64,000 nucleotides of DNA from Deltaproteobacteria bacterium. Lineage in GTDB: Bacteria; Myxococcota; Myxococcia; Myxococcales; 40CM-4-68-19. The translations under genes were made by a program, and so were the position numbers. Location of the stretch: the NCBI GenBank assembly GCA_025358085.1, contig JANYKT010000068.1:1-64000 (forward strand), read 5' to 3'. A model generated the notes under the pieces. It ran no database searches. It worked only from the letters and a program-made list of their open reading frames with translations, and was not told the DNA's origin. This document shows positions 5,484 through 21,226 of this stretch, in pieces (positions within the stretch are counted from its first letter, which is position 1; every line of letters begins with the position of its first letter).

Positions 5484-6509
5484 ATGATCGACACGGTGGC
5501 AGGCCCAGCCAGGACTACTGCAGCGGCGGTCAAGGCGCAGGCGCTTTCGCTGGGCTTTGATCTTTGCGGAGTAGCGCGGGCTCATCCGCTCGACCCTTCA
5601 GCGCTGGACAAGTGGCTGGGCGCGGGCTGGGACGCTGGCCTCAAGTACGTGCGCGAGCGACGCGAGGCCCGGCTCGACCCGTCGCTGTTGCTGCCGGGCG
5701 CGCGCAGCGTGATTGCACTCGCGGCCTCTTATGCGCCGCAGCCCGGCGAAGAAACCCCGGACGGTGAACTCATCGTTGCTCGCTATGCCCGCGGCCGCGA
5801 CTATCACAATGTGGTGCTCAAGCCCGCGCGCAAGCTGGCTGCCTGGCTGCGCTCGCAGGGCGCGCGCGTCTATTGCGAGGTAGACACCGGCGCGGTGATG
5901 GAGAAGGCCTGGGCGCAGGAAGCCGGACTCGGATGGATCGGAAAGAACGGCTGCTTGATTCATGAGCGGCTCGGATCATGGCTGCTGCTGGGCGCGCTGG
6001 TCACCGACGCGGAGCTTGCGCCGGACTCGCCCCATCCCGATCGCTGCGGCGATTGCATTGCTTGTATGCCGGCCTGCCCGACCGCGGCCATTCCCGAGCC
6101 GCGCTTTATTGATGCGCGGCGTTGCCTCGCCTATCACACCATCGAGCACCGCGGCCCGATTCCACCCGAGCTCTCGTCGCTTGCGCCGGGCCGCGTCTTT
6201 GGCTGCGATATATGCCAGGACGTCTGTCCCTGGAATCGCCGGCCGCGGCCAGGGACGCTCGTGCAATTGCGCGCGCGCCCGGAACAGACCGCGCTTTCTT
6301 TAAATGACATCCTCGCGCTCGACACCGCGACGGCCTGGGCGCGCTACGAGGGCACCCCGCTCTTGCGCGCCGGCCGCGACGGACTGGTGCGCAGTGCGCT
6401 TGCGGTTGCGCCGCGGCCCCTCTCGCCGGCAGCTCGTGAACTGGCGACGCGGCTGCTGGCCGATCCCTCGGAAGGCGTGCGCATCGAGGCGCGCCGGGCG
6501 CTCGCGTGA
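5484..6509 (+). CDS. queG: Epoxyqueuosine reductase QueG
   Basis: The 341-residue protein starts at ATG 5484 (MIDTVAGPARTTAAAVKAQA); the frame is open from 5439 but upstream residues are not conserved. It has the cobalamin-binding N-terminal domain (SLGFDLCGVARA, then YARGRDYHNVVLKPARKLA). Two [4Fe-4S] cluster motifs follow: CGDCIACMPACPT, and CDICQDVCPWN. A HEAT-like C-terminus ends the protein. QueG reduces epoxyqueuosine to queuosine in tRNA anticodons using cobalamin, which fits the cobalamin adenosyltransferase at 2358-2894 only in general terms. The stop overlaps the start of the EamA transporter by four bases. Confidence 0.96.
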   Translation: MIDTVAGPARTTAAAVKAQALSLGFDLCGVARAHPLDPSALDKWLGAGWDAGLKYVRERREARLDPSLLLPGARSVIALAASYAPQPGEETPDGELIVARYARGRDYHNVVLKPARKLAAWLRSQGARVYCEVDTGAVMEKAWAQEAGLGWIGKNGCLIHERLGSWLLLGALVTDAELAPDSPHPDRCGDCIACMPACPTAAIPEPRFIDARRCLAYHTIEHRGPIPPELSSLAPGRVFGCDICQDVCPWNRRPRPGTLVQLRARPEQTALSLNDILALDTATAWARYEGTPLLRAGRDGLVRSALAVAPRPLSPAARELATRLLADPSEGVRIEARRALA

Positions 6510-7435
6510 AGCCGACCAGGTCCCTGCTCTACGGCGCGCTGCTCCTCCACACCCTGCTGAGCGCGGGGACGTATATCGTCGCGAAACAAGCGCTCACCGA
6601 GATCCCGCCGCTGGCGCTGGGAATGCTGCGCTTTGGCGGCGCGTCAGTGCTGCTGGCGCTCCTCTTGCGCAAGCTGCGGCCCAAGGGCTCGCGGCTGCCG
6701 CGGCCGGAGCAGCGCCGCAAGCTCTGGCTGCTCGCCTTCGTCGCGGTGCCGCTCAATCAAGGCTTCTTCCTTTATGGCCTGTCGCTCAGCACGGCGGCGC
6801 ACGCGGCGCTGCTCTACACGTTGACGCCTTTGTTCGTGCTGCTGCTGGCGCAAGCGCTGCTGGGGGAACTGCCGGGGTTCCGCACCTCGCTGGGCACCGC
6901 CATCGCGCTGGCCGGCACCGTCTGGGTGCTGTTTGCGCGCGGACTTGACCTTTCGCGCGGGCCGCTCGTGGGCGACCTGCTGATCGTCGTCGCGGTGCTG
7001 GCGTGGGCGTTCTATACCGCCGAAGGCCGCGAGATCGTCGCGCAGGACGGCGCCCTGCCCACCATTGCCTGGACGCTCATCGGTGGAACGCTGTTGTTCC
7101 TGCCGGTGGGTCTCGGTTCAATGCTGCTTCCCTCGACTCGCGCACAGCTCGCGCACGCCTCGCGCGAGGCCTGGCTGGGCGTTCTCTACTTAAGCATCAT
7201 GACGAGTGTGGTTGCTTATCTGATTTGGTACTGGGCGCTCGGCCACCTCACCGCGGCGCGGGTGGCCATCTTCAGCAACCTGCAGCCGCTCGGCACCGCG
7301 CTCCTCGCGCACGTCTTTCTCGGCGAGCGCATCACCGCGTCGTTCCTGCTCGGTGCGGCGGTGGTCATCGCAGGGGTCCTGACTGCACAGCTGCGGTCCC
7401 GGCCAGCTCAGCCGCGCCGCAAGCCGGCGATATAG
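6506..7435 (+). CDS. EamA/DMT-family transporter
   Basis: The 309-residue membrane protein starts with GTG 6506 inside the queG stop. It has about ten hydrophobic segments arranged as two EamA repeats of five; the second repeat begins near residue 155 (VGDLLIVVAVLAWAFYTAEGR). Typical features are PPLALGMLRFGGASVLLALLL, the ALLYTLTPLFVLLLAQALLGE motif and AIFSNLQPLGTALLAHVFLGE. Such carriers export metabolites or amino acids across the inner membrane; the substrate cannot be told. The C-terminus is cationic (RSRPAQPRRKPAI). The 3' end overlaps the convergent rsmB gene by 28 bases. Confidence 0.92.
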   Translation: MKPTRSLLYGALLLHTLLSAGTYIVAKQALTEIPPLALGMLRFGGASVLLALLLRKLRPKGSRLPRPEQRRKLWLLAFVAVPLNQGFFLYGLSLSTAAHAALLYTLTPLFVLLLAQALLGELPGFRTSLGTAIALAGTVWVLFARGLDLSRGPLVGDLLIVVAVLAWAFYTAEGREIVAQDGALPTIAWTLIGGTLLFLPVGLGSMLLPSTRAQLAHASREAWLGVLYLSIMTSVVAYLIWYWALGHLTAARVAIFSNLQPLGTALLAHVFLGERITASFLLGAAVVIAGVLTAQLRSRPAQPRRKPAI

Positions 7436-8745
7436 AATCCGTCGGTGGTATCGCGGTGCGGCAGCAGCTGCACATCGACCTCGGTCGCGGCTACGGAGGC
7501 CGCCAGCGGCGCGCCCAGGAGTTCAGCCGGAGGAATCGGGACCAGCTCCGGATGCGCCTCGGCAAAGGCCGCGCGCACGTCCTGGTTCTCGCCGCGGTTG
7601 ATTGAGCAGGTGGCATAGATCAGCCGTCCGCTCGGCTTGAGTAGCCGCACATACCGCTCGAGGATCTCGCGCTGGCGCGGCGGGAAGATGTTGACCTCGT
7701 CCATGTTCAACCGCCAGCGCGCGTCGGGATTGCGGCGCAGCGCGCCCAGTCCGCTGCAGGGCGCATCGATCAGCACCACGTCGGCCTGGCCCGCGAGGTC
7801 TTCGATGCGGGCCTCGCCCACCGCGCCCTCGGGGACGCCGCGCGACTCGCAGTTGTGCACACCAGCGCGGCGGGCACGCACCTTCATCTCAACCAGCCGG
7901 CGCGCGTCGCGATCGCAGGCGACCAGCCGCCCCTTGTTGTTCATCTCCATCGCGAGCGCCAGCGTCTTGCCTCCCGCGCCGGCACAGGCATCGACCACGA
8001 TCTGTCCCGGCCGCGCGCCGCACGCGAGCGCGATCAACTGGCTGCCTTCGTCCTGGACTTCGAAGAGCCCCGCTTTGAAGGCTTTCAAGGCGAAGACATT
8101 GGTCCGGCCCGTGAAGGTCACGCCCCAGGGTGAAAGCTTCGTTGGCTCGACCCGCGCATCCTCGCCCGCGAGCGTGCGCACGAGCTCGTCCCGCGTGTTC
8201 TTCAAAAGATTTGCGCGCACGGTCAGCGGCGCGCGTTGATTGATGGCAGCGGCGAGCTTGCGGGTCTCTGGAGCACCCAGCTGATCGCTCCAGAGCTTGG
8301 CCAGCCAGCGCGGCAGTGAAGTCTCCGCCGCCAGCGCGTCATTGACATCACCCTCGGGAATGCCCAGCTCCACCGGCTGCGCAACGAGCTCGAGCGCCCA
8401 GAGATACGGCGCGACCTCCAGCCCCGCGAGGCCCGCCGCGCTGGCCGCACTCTGCTGGTCTCCGACAATCAGATAGGCCGCATAGCGCAAGAGATGCTGC
8501 GTGGGCGTCGCCAGCCGATCCATCGAGGACTTGCGGGTCAACAGCGCCCGTCCGAGCAGGTGATCGACCCGGCCCTGCAGCCGGAGCAGGCCATAGACCG
8601 CATCGGAGACCGCCCGCCGCTCGACCGAGCGCAGCCGCTTTTCGCGCCGCAGCACGCGCTGCAGCGACTGATCGGCACGCGCGCCCTCACGCCGCACCTG
8701 TTCGTAGATCTCCATCACTGCCATTCTCACCAGCTCGGCTCGCAT
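7408..8745 (-). CDS. rsmB: 16S rRNA (cytosine-967-C5) methyltransferase RsmB-like
   Basis: The 445-residue protein starts at ATG 8745 (MRAELVRMAVMEIYEQVRR); the frame remains open upstream into the efflux gene, but that part is not coding. Residues 1-135 are a NusB-like RNA-binding domain, and the remainder is a Rossmann methyltransferase. Motif I is VDACAGAGGKTLALA, motif IV DAPCSGLGALRRNPDARWR carries one active Cys, and motif VI YATCSINRGEN the other; the two-Cys arrangement is typical of RNA m5C enzymes. The NusB domain favours RsmB over RsmF or other NOL1/NOP2/sun members. It is divergent from the metal-efflux operon. Confidence 0.92.
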   Translation of the reverse strand: MRAELVRMAVMEIYEQVRREGARADQSLQRVLRREKRLRSVERRAVSDAVYGLLRLQGRVDHLLGRALLTRKSSMDRLATPTQHLLRYAAYLIVGDQQSAASAAGLAGLEVAPYLWALELVAQPVELGIPEGDVNDALAAETSLPRWLAKLWSDQLGAPETRKLAAAINQRAPLTVRANLLKNTRDELVRTLAGEDARVEPTKLSPWGVTFTGRTNVFALKAFKAGLFEVQDEGSQLIALACGARPGQIVVDACAGAGGKTLALAMEMNNKGRLVACDRDARRLVEMKVRARRAGVHNCESRGVPEGAVGEARIEDLAGQADVVLIDAPCSGLGALRRNPDARWRLNMDEVNIFPPRQREILERYVRLLKPSGRLIYATCSINRGENQDVRAAFAEAHPELVPIPPAELLGAPLAASVAATEVDVQLLPHRDTTDGFYIAGLRRG

Positions 8746-8893: not shown

Positions 8894-10192
8894 ATGGGTC
8901 CTTTCTTGTTCGCGCTCTGTCTCCTCGCTGCTGCTGGCGCCCGAGCCGAGCCTCCGGCCGACCCTGTGCAGCTGCCGCCCGTGCTCACGCTCGGCAAGGC
9001 GCTTGCGATCTTCCGCGCCCACGGCTTCGACTTGCTGGTGGCCGAGGCGAACGTGCGCGCCGCCAGCGGTGACGTGAGCATTGCCGGCGGCCTGCCCAAT
9101 CCCAGCCTGTCGCTGAGCGCCGGCAAGAACTTTCGCTGCGCAGCCTCGCAGGATTGCAGCGTGGTCTCCTACAGCGGCTCGCTCTTCGACAACAACCTCA
9201 TCTCGAATCTGGTGACCGGCAAGCGCGGCCTGCGAAAAGACGTAGCGCAGGCTGCATTCGAGGCGGCGCGCCGTTCGAAGGACGACGCCCAGCGGACTCT
9301 CGAGTATCAATTGAAGCAGGCTTACTTCCAGGCCCTGCTCGCCCAGGCACAGCTGCAGGTGGCGACGGATACTTATGAATCGAACCTGCGCACTCGCCAG
9401 GTGAACGAAAAGCGATTCCAGCTGGGGGGAATGAACGAGGCGGATCTCGCCACCATCCAGGTCGCCGAGCTCGAGTCCGAGCAGGCGCAGGATCTCGCCG
9501 GGCAGGGCCTGCGCGCGGCCAAGGTCGCGGTGGCTTTCCTGCTCGGCTTCCGCACCCTGGTGCCGGACTATCAAATCGATGCAAGAGAGCTCGAGTTCGC
9601 GGTCCCGGGAAAGCTCGCCACTGCCACGCGCGAGACGCTGCTCGATCAAGCATTGAAACAGCGGCCCGATATCGCCGCATTCAATCAACAGATCCAGCGC
9701 GCCGATGCCGCGCTGCGCCTGTCGCATCGCAATGTCTTTCCCGATATCGGCGTGGGCGTGACCTATTCAGCGAATGGCACCGGCGACAGCAACATCTCGC
9801 CGCCGAACGGCTCCATCAACCTGAGCTTCACCCCGCCCCTCTTCTATTTCCAGTCGGGCGAGATCCGCCGGGCGGAGGCGGACCTGGTCACACAACAGGT
9901 CCTGCGGCAGAAGGCCGAAGCCCAGACCGTGGCCGACGTCGAGACGGCCTGGGGACAGCTCGTCGCCACGCGCAAGCTGGTGGAGCGGATGGAGAAGTCT
10001 TTGCTGGAGCGCGCCCAGAAAGCCCGCGATCTGATCAAGTTCCAGTACGAGCACGGCGCTGCGTCCCTGTTGGACCTGCTCAATGCCCAGCGAACCTATA
10101 CCGCCATTCGCGCCGAGCATGCCCAGGACCTGGCCAATTATTGGACCGCCTTTTCGCTTCTGGAACAGGCCACGGCGCAGGAGCTCAAATGA
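8894..10192 (+). CDS. TolC-family outer membrane efflux protein (CzcC/CusC-like)
   Basis: This 432-residue protein has a signal peptide (MGPFLFALCLLAAAGARA) and then two TolC repeats. The first helical pair starts LGKALAIFRAHGFDLLVAEANVRAASGDVSIAGGLPNPSLSLS, and the second around QALKQRPDIAAFNQQIQRADAALRLSHRNVFPDIGVG. The final helices carry the typical YEHGAASLLDLLNAQRTYTAIRAEHAQDLANYWTAFSLLEQATA. It should trimerise as the outer-membrane duct of a CBA-type heavy-metal pump. ATG 8894 is preceded by AAGGGAG at a good distance. Its stop overlaps the adaptor start by four bases, and the pump genes follow at once. The metal is not readable from this subunit. Confidence 0.93.
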   Translation: MGPFLFALCLLAAAGARAEPPADPVQLPPVLTLGKALAIFRAHGFDLLVAEANVRAASGDVSIAGGLPNPSLSLSAGKNFRCAASQDCSVVSYSGSLFDNNLISNLVTGKRGLRKDVAQAAFEAARRSKDDAQRTLEYQLKQAYFQALLAQAQLQVATDTYESNLRTRQVNEKRFQLGGMNEADLATIQVAELESEQAQDLAGQGLRAAKVAVAFLLGFRTLVPDYQIDARELEFAVPGKLATATRETLLDQALKQRPDIAAFNQQIQRADAALRLSHRNVFPDIGVGVTYSANGTGDSNISPPNGSINLSFTPPLFYFQSGEIRRAEADLVTQQVLRQKAEAQTVADVETAWGQLVATRKLVERMEKSLLERAQKARDLIKFQYEHGAASLLDLLNAQRTYTAIRAEHAQDLANYWTAFSLLEQATAQELK

Positions 10193-12396
10193 AGATCCTG
10201 ACCCTGATGCTCCTGCTCCTCACGGCTTGCAAAGCCCAGGTCAAACACGAGGAGACGCCGCCAGAAGACGAGCTCTGGATCGCGCGCGACGCCTTCGAGC
10301 ACGGCAGCAAGGTCATTGAAGTCCACGCGCAGGACCTGCCGCAGAACATTACCACCGGCGGGCGCATTGCTTTCGACGACCTGCGCGTCTCGCATGTCTT
10401 CTCGCCGGTGACCGGCCGGGTCACGCGCGTTCTGGCCCAGCTGGGCGCGCCCGTGCACAAGGGCACACCGCTCGCAGCCATCGTCTCGCCCGACGTCGGC
10501 AGCGCCTTCTCCGACCTGGTCAAGGCGCGCGCGGACCTCTCCGCGAGCGAGCGCGACTTCCACCGGCAGGAGCAGCTGCGCGAGGCAGGCGCCGGCTCCA
10601 GCCGCGATTACGAAACATCGGAGGATGCTTATCGCCGGGCCCGAGCCGAGGAGGAGCGCGCGAAAGCGAGGCTGCGCACGCTGCGCTCGGGAAGCGTTGA
10701 TTCCGTGACCCAGGAATACACCTTGCCCAGCCAGATCGAAGGCCGCGTGATTGCGCGCATGATCAATCCCGGTATGGAGGTGCAGGGCCAATTCTCCGGA
10801 GGCACCGCGGTCGAACTGTTTACACTCGGCAGCATCGATTCGGTGATCCTCAATGCCGATGTCGGCGAGGCGGATCTGCCTCAAATGGAGCTGGGCTCGA
10901 CGGTCTCGGTGCGCGTGCTCGCCTGGCCGGACCGCACCTTCAAGGGAAAGCTGGAATGGATCAGCCCCGCGCTCGACCCCGCGCTGCGCACGGCGCGGAT
11001 CCGCTGTGCGCTGCCCAATGCCGATTTTGCCCTCAAGCCCGAGATGTTCGCGACCGTCATCATCGAGCGACCTTCAGTGAGACAGCTGGCGGTGCCGGCC
11101 GGTGCAATCATTCGCATTCATGATCAATCCTTCGTTCAGGTAGCCGCTGGAGAGAGGCCGGACGGCCGGCAAATCTTCAAGCGGCGTCATATCCAGACTT
11201 CCGATCACGACGGCGCCCCGCCGAAGCGGAGCTCACCGCACGGCGAACTCCCGATCGCACAAGCCGAGGCGGCGCCGGCACCCGTGGCCGTTCTCGATGG
11301 GCTGACCGAGGGCGAGAAGGTGCTCATTGACGGCGCCCAGGCACCCAAAGCCGAGCTGGAAGATAGCGTGCTCACCGAGCAGCAACTGCAGTCCGGCAGG
11401 GTCTCCATCGTCGCCGCGGAGGAGAAGGACGTCTCCGACGCCATCACGGTGGGCGGGCGGCTGACCTTCAATGATTTGCGCGTCACGCATGTCTTTCCGC
11501 CGGTCAATGGCCGTATCCAGCGGGTCCTGGCTGCGCCCGGTCAGCACGTGCACAAGGGCGACCCGCTGGCCGTGCTGATTTCGCCCGACCTCGGCAGCGC
11601 CTTCTCCGATCAATTCAAGGCCAAGGCCGACCTGATCCAGGCCGGGCACGAGGTGAAGCGCCAGCGCGAGCTCTATGCCGTCCACGCCAGCGCGCAGAAA
11701 GATCTCGAAATGGCCGAGGGTGCTTATCAAAAGGCCAATGCCGAGCACGAACGCACTTTGCAGAAGACCCGGCTCTTTCAGGTGGGTCAAGCGAGCAACG
11801 TCTCGCAGGAGTATGTCCTGCGGAGCCCCATCGACGGCGAGGTGATCGCGCGCTCCGCGAATCCCGGAGTCGAGGTGCAGGGCGCCTACTCAGGCTCGGG
11901 CGGGGTCACGGAACTCTTTACCATCGGCAGCATCGAGGACCTCTGGTTGATGGGCGAAGTCTATGAAACGGACCTGCCCTACATCAAGCGCGGGGCCCAG
12001 GTTGAATTGAGCGTCTCTATCTATCCCGGACGCATTTTTCGCGGCCGCGTCGATTGGATCTCCGAGACGCTCGATCCCGTCCTGCGCACGGCCAGGGTGC
12101 GCTGCGTGCTCAAGAACCAGCAGAGTCTGCTGCGTCCGGAGATGTATGAAGTGGTCAATATCGCCGCCCCCTCCCGCCACGCCTTGACCATTCCGCGCGA
12201 GGCGCTGTTGCGGCTGGGCAACGAGACCGATGTCTTTGTAGAATTGCCCAAGGACAAAGACGGCCGCACCGCCTTCCGCCGCCGCCGCGTCCTGGCCAAC
12301 GAGCAATTGCCCGGCAGCACCGTGCCTGTGCTTGCGGGCCTGCAGCCGGGCGAGCGCGTGGCCTCCGCCGGCGCGATCTTCCTGGTCGGGAACTGA
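10189..12396 (+). CDS. Tandem-duplicated periplasmic adaptor (membrane fusion protein) of a metal RND pump
   Basis: At 735 residues this is about twice the length of a normal CusB/CzcB adaptor. It starts at ATG 10189 with a lipoprotein signal (MKILTLMLLLLTACKAQ, predicted lipid Cys14). Two complete adaptor modules follow. Module 1 starts near residue 54 (ITTGGRIAFDDLRVSHVFSP) and module 2 near 419 (ITVGGRLTFNDLRVTHVFPP), a period of 365 residues. Each has a lipoyl half (PVHKGTPLAAIVSPDVGSAF; HVHKGDPLAVLISPDLGSAF), a short helical hairpin, a second lipoyl half with a PGVEVQG-like loop, and beta-barrel and membrane-proximal parts (WISPALDPALRTARIRC; WISETLDPVLRTARVRC). A His/Pro-containing linker (about 345-400) joins them. 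RND adaptors normally work as six chains in three pairs, so the fusion would make each pair covalent; that is inference. It overlaps the outer membrane gene by four bases. Confidence 0.93.
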   Translation: MKILTLMLLLLTACKAQVKHEETPPEDELWIARDAFEHGSKVIEVHAQDLPQNITTGGRIAFDDLRVSHVFSPVTGRVTRVLAQLGAPVHKGTPLAAIVSPDVGSAFSDLVKARADLSASERDFHRQEQLREAGAGSSRDYETSEDAYRRARAEEERAKARLRTLRSGSVDSVTQEYTLPSQIEGRVIARMINPGMEVQGQFSGGTAVELFTLGSIDSVILNADVGEADLPQMELGSTVSVRVLAWPDRTFKGKLEWISPALDPALRTARIRCALPNADFALKPEMFATVIIERPSVRQLAVPAGAIIRIHDQSFVQVAAGERPDGRQIFKRRHIQTSDHDGAPPKRSSPHGELPIAQAEAAPAPVAVLDGLTEGEKVLIDGAQAPKAELEDSVLTEQQLQSGRVSIVAAEEKDVSDAITVGGRLTFNDLRVTHVFPPVNGRIQRVLAAPGQHVHKGDPLAVLISPDLGSAFSDQFKAKADLIQAGHEVKRQRELYAVHASAQKDLEMAEGAYQKANAEHERTLQKTRLFQVGQASNVSQEYVLRSPIDGEVIARSANPGVEVQGAYSGSGGVTELFTIGSIEDLWLMGEVYETDLPYIKRGAQVELSVSIYPGRIFRGRVDWISETLDPVLRTARVRCVLKNQQSLLRPEMYEVVNIAAPSRHALTIPREALLRLGNETDVFVELPKDKDGRTAFRRRRVLANEQLPGSTVPVLAGLQPGERVASAGAIFLVGN

Positions 12397-12397
12397 C

Positions 12398-15300
12398 ATG
12401 ATCCGCAAGCTCGTCGACGCTGCGCTTGCCAATCCCGTCATCATCATCTCACTGGCCGTGATCCTTTTGATTGGCGGCATTGCTGCTTTTCGCCGCTTGC
12501 CAATCGAGGCCTATCCGAACCCGGTTCCGCCGCTGGTGGAAGTGATTGCGCAGCCACCGGGCTGGAGCGCGGAAGAGACCGAGCGATATGTCTCGATCCC
12601 GCTCGAGATCGGCCTGTCGGGAATGGCCGGACTCGACCATATCCGCTCGCAATCGCTCTTCGGACTCACCGACGTAAAGTGCTACTTCAAGTGGGGCGTT
12701 GATTACTGGGCCGCGCGGCAGGAGGTCATCAACCGCCTGCAATTCATTTCGCTGCCACCCGGGGTGCAGGCGCAGATCTCTCCCTGGAACGCCATCGGCG
12801 AGGTCTATCGTTACAACCTCGTCGGCAAGGGCTATTCGCTGATTGACTTGAAGACCGCGGAGGACTGGATTCTCGAGCGCCAGTGGAAGCAGGTGCCGGG
12901 CGTCGTCGATGTCACGAGCTTCGGAGGCCAGACGCGCGAATACCACGTCGAGGTCGATCCTTATCTGTTGCGGGCCCGCGGCGTCTCGCTCGCGCAGCTC
13001 TCGGCGGCGCTGGCCAACTCCAATCAGAACGTGGGTGGCCAGCGGGTGACGCTGGGGCAGCAGGCTTATACCATTCGCGGTATCGGACTCATCAGCTCTC
13101 TGAAAGACATCGAAGACGTGGTGGTGCTGGAACAGAAGGGCATTCCCGTCCACGTCCGCGACGTAGCGAAGGTGTCGGTGGGAGGCGCGCCGCGGCTGGG
13201 CAAGGTGGGCCGCGACGGCGATGAAGACGTGGTGCAGGGCACCATTCTCATGAAGTACGGCGGCGAGACCAAGGCCACGCTGCAAGGCATCTATGAGCGG
13301 CTCGCCCTGATCAAGCAGCGCCACCTGCTGCCGCCGGGAATGGAGATCATTCCCTATTATGACCGCGGCGACCTGGTCAATGTAACTACGCATACGGTGA
13401 TGGAGAACCTGATCATCGGCATGGTTTTAGTGACGCTGGTGCTGATCCTCTTTCTCGGCAACTGGCGTGCGGCGATGATTACCGCGCTGAATATCCCGCT
13501 CGCCCTGCTGGTCGCTATCATTGGCCTGGTGGCGACGGGTACCTCCGCGAACCTCATTTCCCTGGGCGCGGTGGACTTTGGCATCGTCATCGATTCCACC
13601 GTGATCATGATGGAGAACATCTTCCGCCACCTGGGCGAGAAGGACGGCGGAAGCCTGCCGGACCGCATCCGCACTGCGGTCGGCGAGGTCGGCAAGCCAA
13701 TGGCCTTCTCCACGGTCATCATCGGCGTTTCTTTTCTGCCGCTGTTCACGCTGACCGGCGTCTCGGGCGTCATCTTCGCGCCCATGTCGCATACTTACGC
13801 ATTGGCCATCGGCGGCGCAATCATACTGGCTTTGACACTCACGCCGGTGCTGACGTCGCGGTTCATGCCCGAGCATGTGGAAGAGAAAGAAAACTTCGTC
13901 ATGCGGGCGCTGCACAAGATCTATGACCCGCTCTTCAATGCCGGCCTGCGAAACCCGTCGCTGGGTGTCTGGCTGCTGCTCTTGCCCATCGCCGCCGTCA
14001 TCCTGCTCTTTCCGCTCTTGGGCAAAGAATTCATGCCGCAGCTCGAGGAGGGCAACTTCTGGATTCGCGCCACGCTCCCGCAGTCGGTCTCGCTGGAAGA
14101 GTCGTCACGGCACGTCGGAAAGATGCGCCAGATCATCAAATCCCACGCCGAGACCTTGACCGTCACCTCCCAGTTGGGCCGGCCCGACGACGGCACCGAT
14201 GTGACCGGCTTTCACAACATGGAATTCTTCGCCCCCTTGAAGCCATTCGATGAATGGCCGGCGGGGCTGACCAAGGAGAAGCTCACCAAGGTGCTGCAGA
14301 AGGAATTGCAGGACGAGTTTCCCGGCGTGCTGTTCAACTTCTCTCAATACATCTCCGATAACGTCGAGGAAGCACTCTCTGGCGTCAAGGGCGAGAACAG
14401 CGTCAAGATCAATGGTCCTGATGTCAAAAGCAATGAAGCTATCGCCGACGGCATCGTGGCGGTGATGCAGAAGGTCCGCGGCGTGGACGACCTGGGGCTT
14501 TTGCGCTCGTTGGGGCAGCCGAGCATCAAGATCGTTCCCGACCGCGCCCAGGCCGCGCGCTATGGACTCAATACCGGCGACATCGAGGCGGTGGTGCAGG
14601 CGGCCATCGGCGGGCAGGCGGTCACGCAGGTCTTCGAGGGTGAAAAGAGCTTCGCGCTGACGGTGCGGTGGCTTCCTCAATATCGCGCCGATCTGGCGGC
14701 CATCCGCCGCATCACGGTGGCCTCGCCCGACGGCAGCCAGATCACGCTCGCGCAGCTCGCCTCGATTACGGCCGAGGATAGCCCCAATGTCATCTACCGT
14801 GAGGACGGCCGCCGCTATACGCCGGTGAAGTTCTCGGTGCGCGGCCGCGACCTGGGCTCGACCATCACCGAGTCGCAGCGCCAAATCGAAGAGAAGGTGC
14901 GCCTGCCGCCCGAGACAAATCTTATCTGGTCAGGGCAGATCAACGAATTGAAAGAGGCAGAGCAGCGGCTCTTCTTGATCGTTCCATTGACTCTCCTGTT
15001 GATTGGCTTCCTGGTCTATAGCGCCGTCCGGAACTGGGCCGCGACTGTCATCGTCCTGGTATCGATTCCGGTGGCCTGTGCCGGTGGAATCCTCGCGCTC
15101 CTGGCCACACGGGTGGACCTGTCGGTCTCGGCGGCGATGGGCTTCATCTCCATCTTTGGTATCGCGGTGCAGGACGCTCTCTTGATGGTCACCTATTTCC
15201 AGCAATTGCGCGCCTCCGGAGACACCATTGAAGTGGCCGCCAAGGCCGCGGCGGAGAAGCGGCTGCGCGCAGGCCTGATGACGACGCTCGTGGCCATGAT

Positions 15301-15490
15301 CGGCCTGTTGCCCGCGGCGCTCTCGCACGGCATCGGCTCCGAGACGCAGCGGCCCCTCGCCATCGTCGTCATCGGCGGCTCGCTGATGCTGACCACGCTC
15401 ACGCGCGTGCTGCAGCCGCCGTTGCTGGTTCTGGCCTGGCGCTGGATTGAAAGGCCGCGGCCAAACAGGGCTATACCGGTCGCGACATGA
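12398..15490 (+). CDS. CzcA-type heavy-metal RND efflux pump
   Basis: This 1030-residue inner membrane transporter starts at ATG 12398, one base after the adaptor stop. It shows the RND plan: membrane helix 1 (NPVIIISLAVILLIGGIAAF), a large periplasmic loop (about 40-330), helices 2-6, a second periplasmic loop (about 560-860) and helices 8-12. In helix 4 the proton-relay motif reads VDFGIVIDSTVIMMEN, with the two Asp and one Glu typical of the HME subfamily (CzcA D402, D408 and E415 equivalents). This favours divalent ions such as zinc, cobalt or nickel over the Cu/Ag CusA group; the ion is an inference. It exports metal through the adaptor and the TolC-type duct using proton entry. Its stop overlaps the kinase start. 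Confidence 0.95.
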   Translation: MIRKLVDAALANPVIIISLAVILLIGGIAAFRRLPIEAYPNPVPPLVEVIAQPPGWSAEETERYVSIPLEIGLSGMAGLDHIRSQSLFGLTDVKCYFKWGVDYWAARQEVINRLQFISLPPGVQAQISPWNAIGEVYRYNLVGKGYSLIDLKTAEDWILERQWKQVPGVVDVTSFGGQTREYHVEVDPYLLRARGVSLAQLSAALANSNQNVGGQRVTLGQQAYTIRGIGLISSLKDIEDVVVLEQKGIPVHVRDVAKVSVGGAPRLGKVGRDGDEDVVQGTILMKYGGETKATLQGIYERLALIKQRHLLPPGMEIIPYYDRGDLVNVTTHTVMENLIIGMVLVTLVLILFLGNWRAAMITALNIPLALLVAIIGLVATGTSANLISLGAVDFGIVIDSTVIMMENIFRHLGEKDGGSLPDRIRTAVGEVGKPMAFSTVIIGVSFLPLFTLTGVSGVIFAPMSHTYALAIGGAIILALTLTPVLTSRFMPEHVEEKENFVMRALHKIYDPLFNAGLRNPSLGVWLLLLPIAAVILLFPLLGKEFMPQLEEGNFWIRATLPQSVSLEESSRHVGKMRQIIKSHAETLTVTSQLGRPDDGTDVTGFHNMEFFAPLKPFDEWPAGLTKEKLTKVLQKELQDEFPGVLFNFSQYISDNVEEALSGVKGENSVKINGPDVKSNEAIADGIVAVMQKVRGVDDLGLLRSLGQPSIKIVPDRAQAARYGLNTGDIEAVVQAAIGGQAVTQVFEGEKSFALTVRWLPQYRADLAAIRRITVASPDGSQITLAQLASITAEDSPNVIYREDGRRYTPVKFSVRGRDLGSTITESQRQIEEKVRLPPETNLIWSGQINELKEAEQRLFLIVPLTLLLIGFLVYSAVRNWAATVIVLVSIPVACAGGILALLATRVDLSVSAAMGFISIFGIAVQDALLMVTYFQQLRASGDTIEVAAKAAAEKRLRAGLMTTLVAMIGLLPAALSHGIGSETQRPLAIVVIGGSLMLTTLTRVLQPPLLVLAWRWIERPRPNRAIPVAT

Positions 15491-17351
15491 AGCTGCGCCC
15501 GCGCATCGCGCTCGTCTCCTGCCTGGTGGCGCTCATCTCGGTGGGCGTGACCGGTGCGCTGCTCATCCGGCAATCGCGCGCCTGGTCCGCGCAGGAGCTT
15601 TTGCAACGACAGACTTTGCTGGTGCAGACGCGGGCCTTCGCGGTGGGCGACGCTCTGGAGACCGCCTCGCGCGAGCTCATTCGCTTGTCCCAGAGCGCCG
15701 AAGTCGACCTCACCGACAACGACGTGCGGCCCGAGGCTGCACTGCTCGCGCACGCGCACCGCAACTCAACCATCTTCAATGTCGGGCTGCAGGTGGTGGA
15801 CAAAGCTGGACTCTGCCTTTGGTCGGAGCCGGCGGCGGCGGGCTGCCCGGGCCGCTCCTACGCCGACGAGCCGTGGTTCGTGCAGGGCAAGCGGGCCAAA
15901 GGCGCCATCGTCGTTCCGCAGCGCGCGGCCGACGAGGCGACGGTCATCAATGTGGTGGTCCCGGTGGGCGGCCGCTTCGACGCGCCCGACGGCGTGCTGC
16001 GCGGCGTGATTGATCTGCGCAATGACAAGATCATCTCGCCCAACTTGACTCAATCGCTGCCGCCACAGACCGAGGTGGCGCTGGTCACCCGCGGTGGCGA
16101 GATCATGTTTCCGGCGGGCCTCAAGCGCACCATTGGATGGGATCGCGCGCTCGCAGCCGCGCCCAGCGGGCCCGCCAGCGCTTTCGTCGCTACCGAAGAG
16201 ACAGGCTGGGTTTATGCCCACGCGCCAGTCGCGCACGCTGAATGGGGGCTGGTCTTTCGCTGGCCCTATGCCGGGCTCGATAGCGGGCTCCAGCGCCAAC
16301 TGGGCTTGCTGCTGCGAATCCTCGGCTTTGGCGGCGCGCTGGCGGTGCTGCTCGGTCTCGGCACCTCTGGATACCTGACCGGCCCGCTGGAAGAGCTCTT
16401 GCGCGCGGTGCGGTCGCTCAGCGCGGCGCGGCGCACCGGCGCTGAGCCGCCTCCTTTCGCGACCGGCGCCGCGCGGCGCACCGACGAGCTGGGCGAGCTT
16501 TCGCGCGCCTTCGCCGACCTGCGGGCACAGCTCTCCTCGGGCGACCAGGTGCACCGTCAGGATCTGGAGCGCATTCGCGAGCTCGCGGCGTCGCTGGAAG
16601 AGCGCGTGCGGGCGCGCACCGCGGAGCTGGAGGCGGCGCAGCTGACGCTGGTGGCGCAGGAGCGGCTGGCGGCGATGGGCCGCGCCGCGGCGGTGATCTC
16701 GCATGAATTGAAGAACTCATTGAATGCGCTGGGCATGGGCTTTGACCTGGTCGCGCTCGAGGCGGGCCGGCTGCCGCACCTCGCGCGCGTCAATGCTCAG
16801 GTGCGCGAGGAGGTCAATCGATTGCGGACCATGTCTGACGAGCTGCTGGTCTTTGCCCGCAGCCCGCGCATCGAGGCCCGGTCAGTGGACTTGAATGATC
16901 TGGCGCGACGCACGGTGGAGTTGTGCGCGGAGCAGGCGGCCTCGGCCGGCGTGCGGGTGGCGCTCAAGCTCGACGGTTCATTGACGGTCTCGTGCGATGC
17001 CGAGCGTATCCGCAGCGTGCTGGTCAATCTGCTCCAGAATGCCATTGAGGCGGTGGCCTGGGGAACGGCTCCGGGGGCGCGGCGCGAGGTGCTGCTGGCC
17101 ACGCAAGGAGGACCTTCGTTTGCTTTCGTCGCAATTGAAGACAGCGGGCCCGGCGTTGCTGCCGAAGCGCAGGAGCATCTCTTCGAGCCCTTCTTCACCA
17201 CCAAGCGCAACGGCACTGGGCTGGGCCTCGCCACCGCGCAGCGCTTCGCCGCCGCCCACGGCGGTCATATCGAGTTGCAGACTTCGACTTTGGGCGGTGC
17301 CCGCTTCGTGCTCCGGCTTCCATTGTTCGCACCCGTTTCCGTCGAGGCCGC

Positions 17352-17355
<4 letters not shown>
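15487..17355 (+). CDS. Membrane sensor histidine kinase of the efflux operon
   Basis: The 622-residue protein has an N-terminal membrane helix (about 8-29, IALVSCLVALISVGVTGALLI) and a periplasmic sensor domain of Cache-like character (about 35-265, with DNDVRPEAALLAHAHRNSTIFNVGLQVVDK). A second helix (about 277-300) is followed by HAMP and a coiled coil (RIRELAASLEERVRARTAELEAAQ). The phosphoacceptor helix AAAVISHELKNSLNALGMG has its His in HELKN, as in NtrB/ZraS-type kinases. The ATPase domain has the N box (NLLQNAIEAV), G1 EDSGPGV and G2 GTGLGLA. It starts inside the pump stop and its stop overlaps the response regulator start. It presumably senses periplasmic metal and phosphorylates Asp52 of that regulator. 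Confidence 0.93.
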
Positions 17356-18737
<1,382 letters not shown>

Positions 18738-18874: not shown

Positions 18875-21226
18875 ATGCCGGTATCAAGCAGGGACATCGA
18901 GGATCTGGACGCGCTCTGGCGCGCCGCGAATTATCTGACTGTCGGGCAGATCTACCTGCAGGCGAATCCGCTCTTGATCGAGCCGCTCCGCCCCGCGGAC
19001 ATCAAGCCGCGCCTGCTCGGCCACTGGGGAACCTCACCCGGATTGAGCCTTGTCTATGTCCATTTGAATCGGCTCATCAAAAGGGATCAGGCGCAGGTGA
19101 TCTTCCTCGCGGGCCCCGGCCACGGCGGGCCGGCGGTGATCGCGAATGTCTATCTGGAAGGTACTTATTCGGAGATCTATCCCGCGATCACACAGGACGC
19201 CGCGGGAATGCGCGCGCTCTTCCGGCAATTCTCCACGCCCGGCGGCGTCCCCAGCCATGTGAGCCCTCCCACTCCCGGCTCCATTCATGAGGGCGGCGAG
19301 CTCGGGTATGTCCTCGCGCACGCGTTCGGCGCCGTCTTCGACAACCCCGACTTGATCGCGGTGGCGGTGGTCGGCGATGGCGAGGCCGAGACGGCTCCCT
19401 TGGAAGGCTCCTGGAAGGGAGTGAGCTTTCTCAATCCGCTGCGCGACGGCGCGGTGCTCCCCGTGCTGCACCTGAATGGCTACAAGATCGCCGGTCCCAC
19501 CGTGCTCGCGCGCGCGCCCGAAGAGGACCTCGCCCACCTCCTGCGGGGGCACGGCTATGACCCGCACTTCGTCTCGGGCGACGAGCCGGGGAAAGTGCAT
19601 GAGGCCTTTGCGAACACGCTCGAGCGGTGTCTGGAGACCATCCGCCGGATCCAGCGCGAGGCGCGCGCGAACGGGAGCGTTGCGGCGCGGCCGCGCTGGC
19701 CCGCCATCGTCTTGCGCACGCCGAAGGGATGGACCGGGCCCGCTCAAGTCGATGGCATCCCGATCGAAGGAACGTTCCGCGCCCACCAGGTCCCGGTCTC
19801 GCAGGTGCGGACCAACCCGCAGCACCTCGCCATCCTGGAAGCGTGGATGAAGAGCTACCGGCCCGAAGATCTCTTTGACTCCCGCGGGCAATTGATTCCG
19901 CGCCTCGCCGCCCTCATGCCGGAAGGTCCCCTGCGCATGGGCGCAAACCCACACGCGAACGGCGGGCTGCTCTCGAGGCCTCTCTCGATCCCTGACTTCA
20001 AATCCTATGCAATCGCTGTCCCGGGGCCGGGCACGGTCGTCCGTGAATCGACTCGCCTGTTGGGGGAGCTGCTGCGCGACGTCTATCGACAGAACCCGTC
20101 CAGCTTCCGGCTCTTCTGCCCCGACGAGACCAACTCGAATCGGCTGGGCGCAGTCTTCGAGACCGAGCAGCGCTGCCTGGTGGAGCGCACGATTCCAGGC
20201 GACGACCACGTCTCGGTAAATGGCCGCGTGATGGAGGTCCTCAGCGAGCACAACTGCGAAGGCTGGCTGGAGGGATATCTGCTCACCGGCCGCCACGGAC
20301 TCTTCGCTACTTATGAAGCCTTCGCGCTCATCGTCGCTTCCATGGTCACCCAGCACGTCAAATGGCTGGAGGCCTGCGAGGAGCTTCCGTGGCGCGCGCC
20401 GATCCCGTCGCTCAATGTCCTCTTGACCTCGACCTGCTGGCGCAATGACAACAACGGCTTCAGCCACCAGGGCCCCGGCTTCATGGACACTATCGTCTCG
20501 AAGAAGGGAACGGTGGCGCGCGTCTACCTTCCGCCCGACGCCAACTGCCTGCTCTCGGTCGCCGACCACTGCCTGCGCAGCCGCAACTATGTGAACCTGA
20601 TCATCATCGACAAGCAGCCCCAGCTGCAGTGGCTCGGGATGGACGCCGCGCGCGAGCACTGCGCGAAAGGCGCCTCGGTCTGGAGCTGGGCTTCCAATCA
20701 CCAGGAAGACCCCGACATCGTGCTCGGCTGCGCGGGGGATGTGATGACGCTGGAGACGATCGCGGCGGCGTGGTGGCTGCGAAAGTATGCGCCCGGCCTG
20801 CATGTGCGCGTGGTCAACGTCGTTGACCTGATGGGCCTGTTCTCCCCGTCCGAGCACCCTCACGGGATGCCGGAAGATCGCTTTTCGGAATTGTTTACTG
20901 CTGACGTCCACGTCGTCTTTGCCTTTCACGGCTATCCAGGCCTCTTGCACCAGCTGCTCCACGGGCGCCCGCATGCGCAGCGCTTTCATGTCCGCGGCTA
21001 TCGCGAGGAGGGCACCACCACCACGCCATTCGATATGGTGGTGCTCAATCAGGTCAGCCGCTTCCACCTGGTAATCGAGGCGCTCCGGCGCGCCCGCAGG
21101 CCTCCGGATAACGCGGACCTGCTCATCGACGGATGCCTCGCGATCCTGAAGCAGCACCGCGCGTATGTCCGCGAGCAGCTGGAGGACATGCCCGCGATCC
21201 GCGACTGGACCTGGGCGAGCGCATGA
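18875..21226 (+). CDS. xfp: Phosphoketolase (xylulose-5-P/fructose-6-P)
   Basis: This 783-residue thiamine diphosphate enzyme starts [28 protein letters not shown] (ATG 18875). It carries the family blocks [32 protein letters not shown]-like [17 protein letters not shown], the TPP/Mg motif [16 protein letters not shown] and [12 protein letters not shown]. The C-terminal XFP domain has [16 protein letters not shown] and SHQGPGFMD. It cleaves xylulose 5-phosphate or fructose 6-phosphate with phosphate to acetyl phosphate and a triose or tetrose phosphate. Its stop overlaps the acetate kinase start (ATGA), so acetyl phosphate can be turned into ATP and acetate by the next product. The 137-base leader shows no clear promoter. 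Confidence 0.97.

Follow-up and report, generated by a model that had tools for sequence, protein, structure and literature searches.

In the dominant model of RND efflux systems, pump, adaptor and channel follow a 3:6:3 plan with an adaptor dimer as the functional unit, a model supported by TriAB, DSY0927 and working AcrA fusions (PMC4446572, PMC4338810). The TriABC-OpmH system of Pseudomonas aeruginosa contains two diverged adaptors per RND pump, TriA and TriB (36% identical), which take non-equivalent roles; the manner in which these roles are assigned within the assembled ring is said to be unclear as yet (PMC13328181). A natural fused dimeric adaptor, DSY0927, has been described in Desulfitobacterium hafniense (Zgurskaya 2009, as cited in PMC4446572 and PMC4338810), and engineered tandem AcrA fusions are reported to complement an AcrA deletion (Xu 2011a, as cited in PMC4446572). 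The adaptors of ZneCAB, CzcCBA and CusCBA, whose pumps belong to TIGR00914, are single-module proteins.

An adaptor that departs from this usual one-module-per-chain build is encoded in an operon of an uncultured myxobacterium. The stretch of DNA that was analysed (the window) comprises 64,000 nucleotides of contig JANYKT010000068.1 (assembly GCA_025358085.1) and contains, in order, genes for a TolC protein, a tandem RND periplasmic adaptor with an N and a C module, a CzcA-type RND pump, a histidine kinase and a sigma-54 regulator. The features of the operon and of the adaptor are as follows:

8894–10192, plus strand: outer-membrane channel gene of the TolC/OEP family (Pfam OEP, E 3e-45)
10189–12396, plus strand: tandem (double-module) periplasmic adaptor, a 735-residue lipoprotein (reading frame, Pfam, BLASTP, AlphaFold2 model)
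10189–10230, plus strand: signal peptide with lipobox LTAC and predicted lipidated Cys14 (sequence, alignment of tandems)
10270–11328, plus strand: module N, residues 28–380, with membrane-proximal domain, beta-barrel, lipoyl domain and helical hairpin (HlyD_D23, AlphaFold2)
10489–10683, plus strand: module N helical hairpin, residues 101–132 and 138–165, tip motif R-x3-L-x6-S (AlphaFold2, tip alignment)
11329–11364, plus strand: inter-module linker, residues 381–392 (alignment of six tandems, AlphaFold2)
11365–12393, plus strand: module C, residues 393–735, a second complete adaptor (HlyD_D23, AlphaFold2)
11584–11781, plus strand: module C helical hairpin, residues 466–497 and 503–531, with Ala in the third place of the tip motif (AlphaFold2, tip alignment)
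12398–15490, plus strand: CusA/CzcA-family heavy-metal RND pump (TIGR00914; nearest solved structure ZneA)
15487–17355, plus strand: histidine kinase (Pfam HATPase_c)
17352–18737, plus strand: NtrC-type sigma-54 response regulator (Pfam Sigma54_activat, Response_reg, HTH_8)

This locus shares features with each of the described systems and matches none of them in full. As in TriABC-OpmH, two diverged adaptors are provided per RND pump, but TriA and TriB are the products of separate genes for a triclosan pump, whereas the tandem is one chain from a single ORF beside an HME-type pump. DSY0927, as far as the citing papers describe it, is likewise a single natural chain with two adaptor modules; its host is Gram-positive and its N half is without a coiled coil (PMC4338810), unlike the tandem, which has full hairpins in both halves, 46% identity between them and a place in a tolC-RND operon. 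The AcrA fusions, on the account given in the same literature, are also covalent adaptor dimers but are man-made, contain the same adaptor twice and serve a drug pump. The operon is like ZneCAB, CzcCBA and CusCBA in having a pump in TIGR00914, and, of the adaptors with solved structures, ZneB and CusB are the closest to the tandem in both sequence and fold. The implication of the original prediction that this build lacks a parallel goes too far: fused and paired adaptors are known from DSY0927, TriABC and the AcrA fusions, while none of those found is of the metal type, and the literature searched yielded no precedent for a fused adaptor in a metal-type RND context. The tandem is a real, old and conserved natural version of an arrangement known mainly as two genes or as laboratory fusions.

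The adaptor gene runs from an ATG at 10189 to a TGA at 12394–12396 with no in-frame stops across its 735 codons. Comparison of residues 1–365 with residues 366–735 by BLASTP reveals the internal repeat (137 of 300 positions identical, E 5e-93), with a single one-residue gap that shifts the offset from 365 to 366 residues, in agreement with the predicted 365-residue period. At the DNA level, the best repeat is 59 nt long, 73% identical and spaced by 1098 nt, which agrees with the protein offset. All three predicted motif pairs are present in both halves: ITTGGRIAFDDLRVSHVFSP and ITVGGRLTFNDLRVTHVFPP, SPDVGSAF and SPDLGSAF, and WISPALDPALRTAR and WISETLDPVLRTAR. The Pfam model HlyD_D23 matches twice (E 2e-80; 269.5 bits against a cut-off of 30, over two stretches), and the NCBI RND adaptor model TIGR01730 also matches over two stretches (237.5 bits, cut-off 94.9). 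At the subfamily level, the scores fall below the cut-offs for both CzcB/NccB (TIGR00999, 219.1 against 319.3) and CusB (PRK09783, 106.4 against 390). Together with the intact frame and the structure model, these results bear out the presence of two complete adaptor modules in one chain. The source is a 217-contig draft genome, which might suggest that assembly or sequencing had united two adaptor genes. However, no frameshift or assembly join is found between the modules: the single frame has a uniform codon signature (GC3 of 0.80 and 0.82 for the N and C halves, with codon-position composition even over the join), and the same architecture occurs in seven independently assembled loci, including that of a named strain. 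An artefact is ruled out by these homologues.

A model of the adaptor was calculated with AlphaFold2 from an alignment of 35 related sequences (mean pLDDT 88.1) and supersedes an earlier, low-confidence model based on six sequences (pLDDT 64). In both modules, the model shows the strands of the membrane-proximal and barrel domains together with a lipoyl domain and a hairpin of two helices, approximately 65 residues long (101–165 in N and 466–531 in C). A Foldseek search with this model returned ZneB as the top match, followed by AcrA, CusB in CusBA and MexA, with one module per match. The pTM of 0.52 indicates that the relative placing of the N and C modules is not predicted reliably, and linker residues 384–389 have low confidence. 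The linker of approximately 12 residues is nearly constant in length and variable in sequence among the six aligned tandems. A lipoprotein signal is present at the N-terminus only, where Cys14 is invariant in all six aligned tandems; module C is without a signal peptide, leaving the Cys14 lipid as the sole predicted anchor of the chain. Module N also contains an extra stretch of approximately 21 residues (11209–11268 in the window; loop 341–360) that is poorly modelled. This stretch is common to the window and a second genome of the same family (G005), is missing in the other four aligned tandems and, judged by module length, is probably also present in a tandem on contig C59 of genome G080.

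To determine the distribution of this architecture, 195 genomes of Myxococcota, the phylum of the window, were searched, with a tandem counted where a match extended across the whole profile. Full-length tandems are present in seven loci: that of the window, that of G005 and a further five from another family within the order, so that the search for other tandems beside pumps was successful and homologues are found as one gene rather than always as two. One of the seven belongs to a named strain, Anaeromyxobacter oryzisoli SG63. Where measured, the tandem adaptors are 46–61% identical to that of the window. In G080, a split copy has its N half at the end of one contig and its C half at the start of another; since each half takes the expected position in the trees, this is probably an eighth tandem that was cut by the assembly. 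The remaining relatives examined are single adaptors, the commoner arrangement. A first single-sequence scan of named genomes gave no matches, and plasmid matches to more than 80% of the query were rejected as they looked like joined pieces of single adaptors, with approximately 900–1100 bases matched by both modules. No tandems were found in 297 genomes of the phylum of an Acidobacteria record (G195), 399 of the phylum of a Burkholderiales record (G197) or 198 of the phylum of a Hymenobacter (G202), in searches that scored the top few candidates per genome with strict cut-offs and that distant tandems could therefore escape. Among the genomes searched, the tandem architecture is restricted to two families of myxobacteria and is fairly rare. 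A different arrangement is seen in Myxococcales BP9.bin63 (L050:5977-8191), where a related RND pump is preceded by two neighboring, unfused adaptor genes, both of which encode a lipobox. Like the tandem, this locus has two adaptor copies before the pump, but in two genes; these copies are sisters to each other and lie outside the tandem clades, so the pair is an independent duplication that gave a two-gene version.

The module tree resolves two clades, one of all eight N modules (100/98) and one of all eight C modules (98/99). The pumps of the tandem loci likewise group in a single clade (SH-aLRT 97), whose main branches follow those of the tandems. This agreement indicates a single origin of the tandem, before the versions in the two families split, and its inheritance together with the pump. 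The TolC proteins, in contrast, form no single clade, which indicates that the channel has been exchanged. At the G080 contig C59 locus (L104:3700-10830), a tandem adaptor and RND pump have no detectable tolC upstream; a gene for an NDH-2-like oxidoreductase is there instead, which means that the channel has to be supplied from elsewhere. Copies from G080 are found in each of the two subclades, and the tandem may have moved by horizontal transfer within the group. A recent internal duplication is rejected: N–C identity within a protein (43–49%) is not above the level seen when single adaptors are compared across genomes (mean 48%), and the N and C modules form separate clades. Monophyly of N plus C, the sign of an internal duplication, is neither supported nor rejected (p-AU 0.48). 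Of the proposed old duplication, then, the age and single origin are upheld by the clades, while duplication and fusion of distinct adaptor genes are both compatible with the data.

The favored reading, to which a probability of roughly 0.7 is assigned, is that this natural tandem adaptor builds the six-module ring from three chains, with the N and C modules in set positions. The ring would sit between a trimer of the CzcA-type RND pump and one of the TolC-type channel, and each chain would bring to it two complete, diverged modules that are connected by a short linker of nearly uniform length and share a single N-terminal lipid anchor. In each chain, the N module would occupy one non-equivalent position and the C module the other, and each would retain a hairpin tip for the channel. 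As three chains would supply six modules, the 3:6:3 plan would become 3:3:3 in chains, the stoichiometry originally proposed. The hexamer geometry and fixed module positions are inferred, and the linker length would suit a tether between neighboring membrane-proximal domains. A stronger form of this proposal envisages an ancient fused hetero-adaptor that locks N and C in the two non-equivalent positions on a heavy-metal RND pump, with an obligately asymmetric ring and a gene-encoded 3:6:3 module stoichiometry; it is considered tentative, at slightly less than even odds.

Whether the modules have separate assignments can be judged in part from their divergence. The N and C modules evolve asymmetrically: C modules are the better conserved in 20 of 21 comparisons, which share one tree and hence are not independent. 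The channel-binding tip motif RxxxLxxxxxxS is known from MacA, AcrA and MexA, and its serine position is reported to be the permissive one (PMC3391258). In the tandems, the R is kept in all modules and a hydrophobic residue occupies the L place, while in the third place all eight C modules have Ala and the N modules have Ser, Pro or Thr and never Ala. Given the permissive nature of the serine position, this Ala marks divergence and does not prove a function. Only four columns passed the filter for fixed N- or C-specific residues, so specialization is weakly marked and a strong division of labor is not demonstrated. These few fixed differences are consistent with a neutral fusion of interchangeable adaptors, equivalent to six free copies, with unassigned positions and retention by drift or balanced expression, as are the prevalence of single-adaptor relatives and the function of engineered AcrA fusions (PMC4446572). 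A need for fusion is also countered by single-adaptor relatives beside a pump that is 56–63% identical, which presumably function unfused. Nevertheless, such a fusion is considered unlikely: N and C remain separate clades without homogenization, their rates and tips differ consistently, and the pump lineage tracks the tandem.

The faster evolution of N in nearly every comparison could instead mean that one module alone engages the pump and channel and that the other has been recruited elsewhere, for example to metal handling or ring sealing. This is very improbable, as both modules keep all adaptor domains along with the R and hydrophobic tip positions. Periplasmic cleavage of the chain into two adaptors, a TriA/TriB-like pair from one gene, is improbable as well; the low confidence of the linker and the unmodelled loop 341–360 would be compatible with processing, but module C would be left without any membrane anchor, and a linker of near-constant length and varying sequence shows no conserved cleavage site.

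The organization of the operon ties the tandem adaptor to its pump. Genes overlap by ATGA at the tolC/adaptor, pump/kinase and kinase/regulator junctions, and a one-base gap separates the adaptor from the pump ATG at 12398. The predicted link to a CzcA-type pump is confirmed by this adjoining gene, which scores 820.8 bits against TIGR00914 (CusA/CzcA, cut-off 701.45) and whose nearest solved structure is ZneA, at E 9e-200 compared with E 3e-143 for CusA. In the alignment with CusA, no methionines of the window pump stand opposite those of the CusA Cu(I) ladder, which would argue against a CusA-type copper pump. Based on family membership, the operon is predicted to export divalent metal ions, and the downstream kinase/regulator pair probably controls it. 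A kinase and sigma-54 regulator 38% and 54% identical to this pair are encoded next to an RND locus with one adaptor in a different family (L036:1502-8540), linking the regulatory pair to the pump family beyond the tandem. In A. oryzisoli, genes for an OprB-type porin and a P-type cation ATPase lie downstream of the tandem operon (L027:13420-17317), a weak hint of ion homeostasis; the ATPase is downstream in this one tandem locus only. Adjoining the window operon is a long ORF (18875–21226) that resembles a phosphoketolase by eye. The same genome has a second RND locus with a single adaptor (L031, G000:C139), in which the pump gene (approximately 5931–7668, minus strand) is without residues corresponding to approximately 473–905 and has a frame shift there, suggesting either a defective pump gene or an error in the assembly.

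The tandem bears on how the six adaptors on an RND pump with three-fold symmetry come to form two non-equivalent sets, and on whether these sets differ in the work they do. As fused and paired adaptors were already known, it is mainly useful as a handle on adaptor asymmetry: since the chain fixes the pairing and order of the modules, each position would be separately mutable, unlike in a homo-hexameric adaptor, and removal of the register ambiguity may make the tandem suited to structural work.
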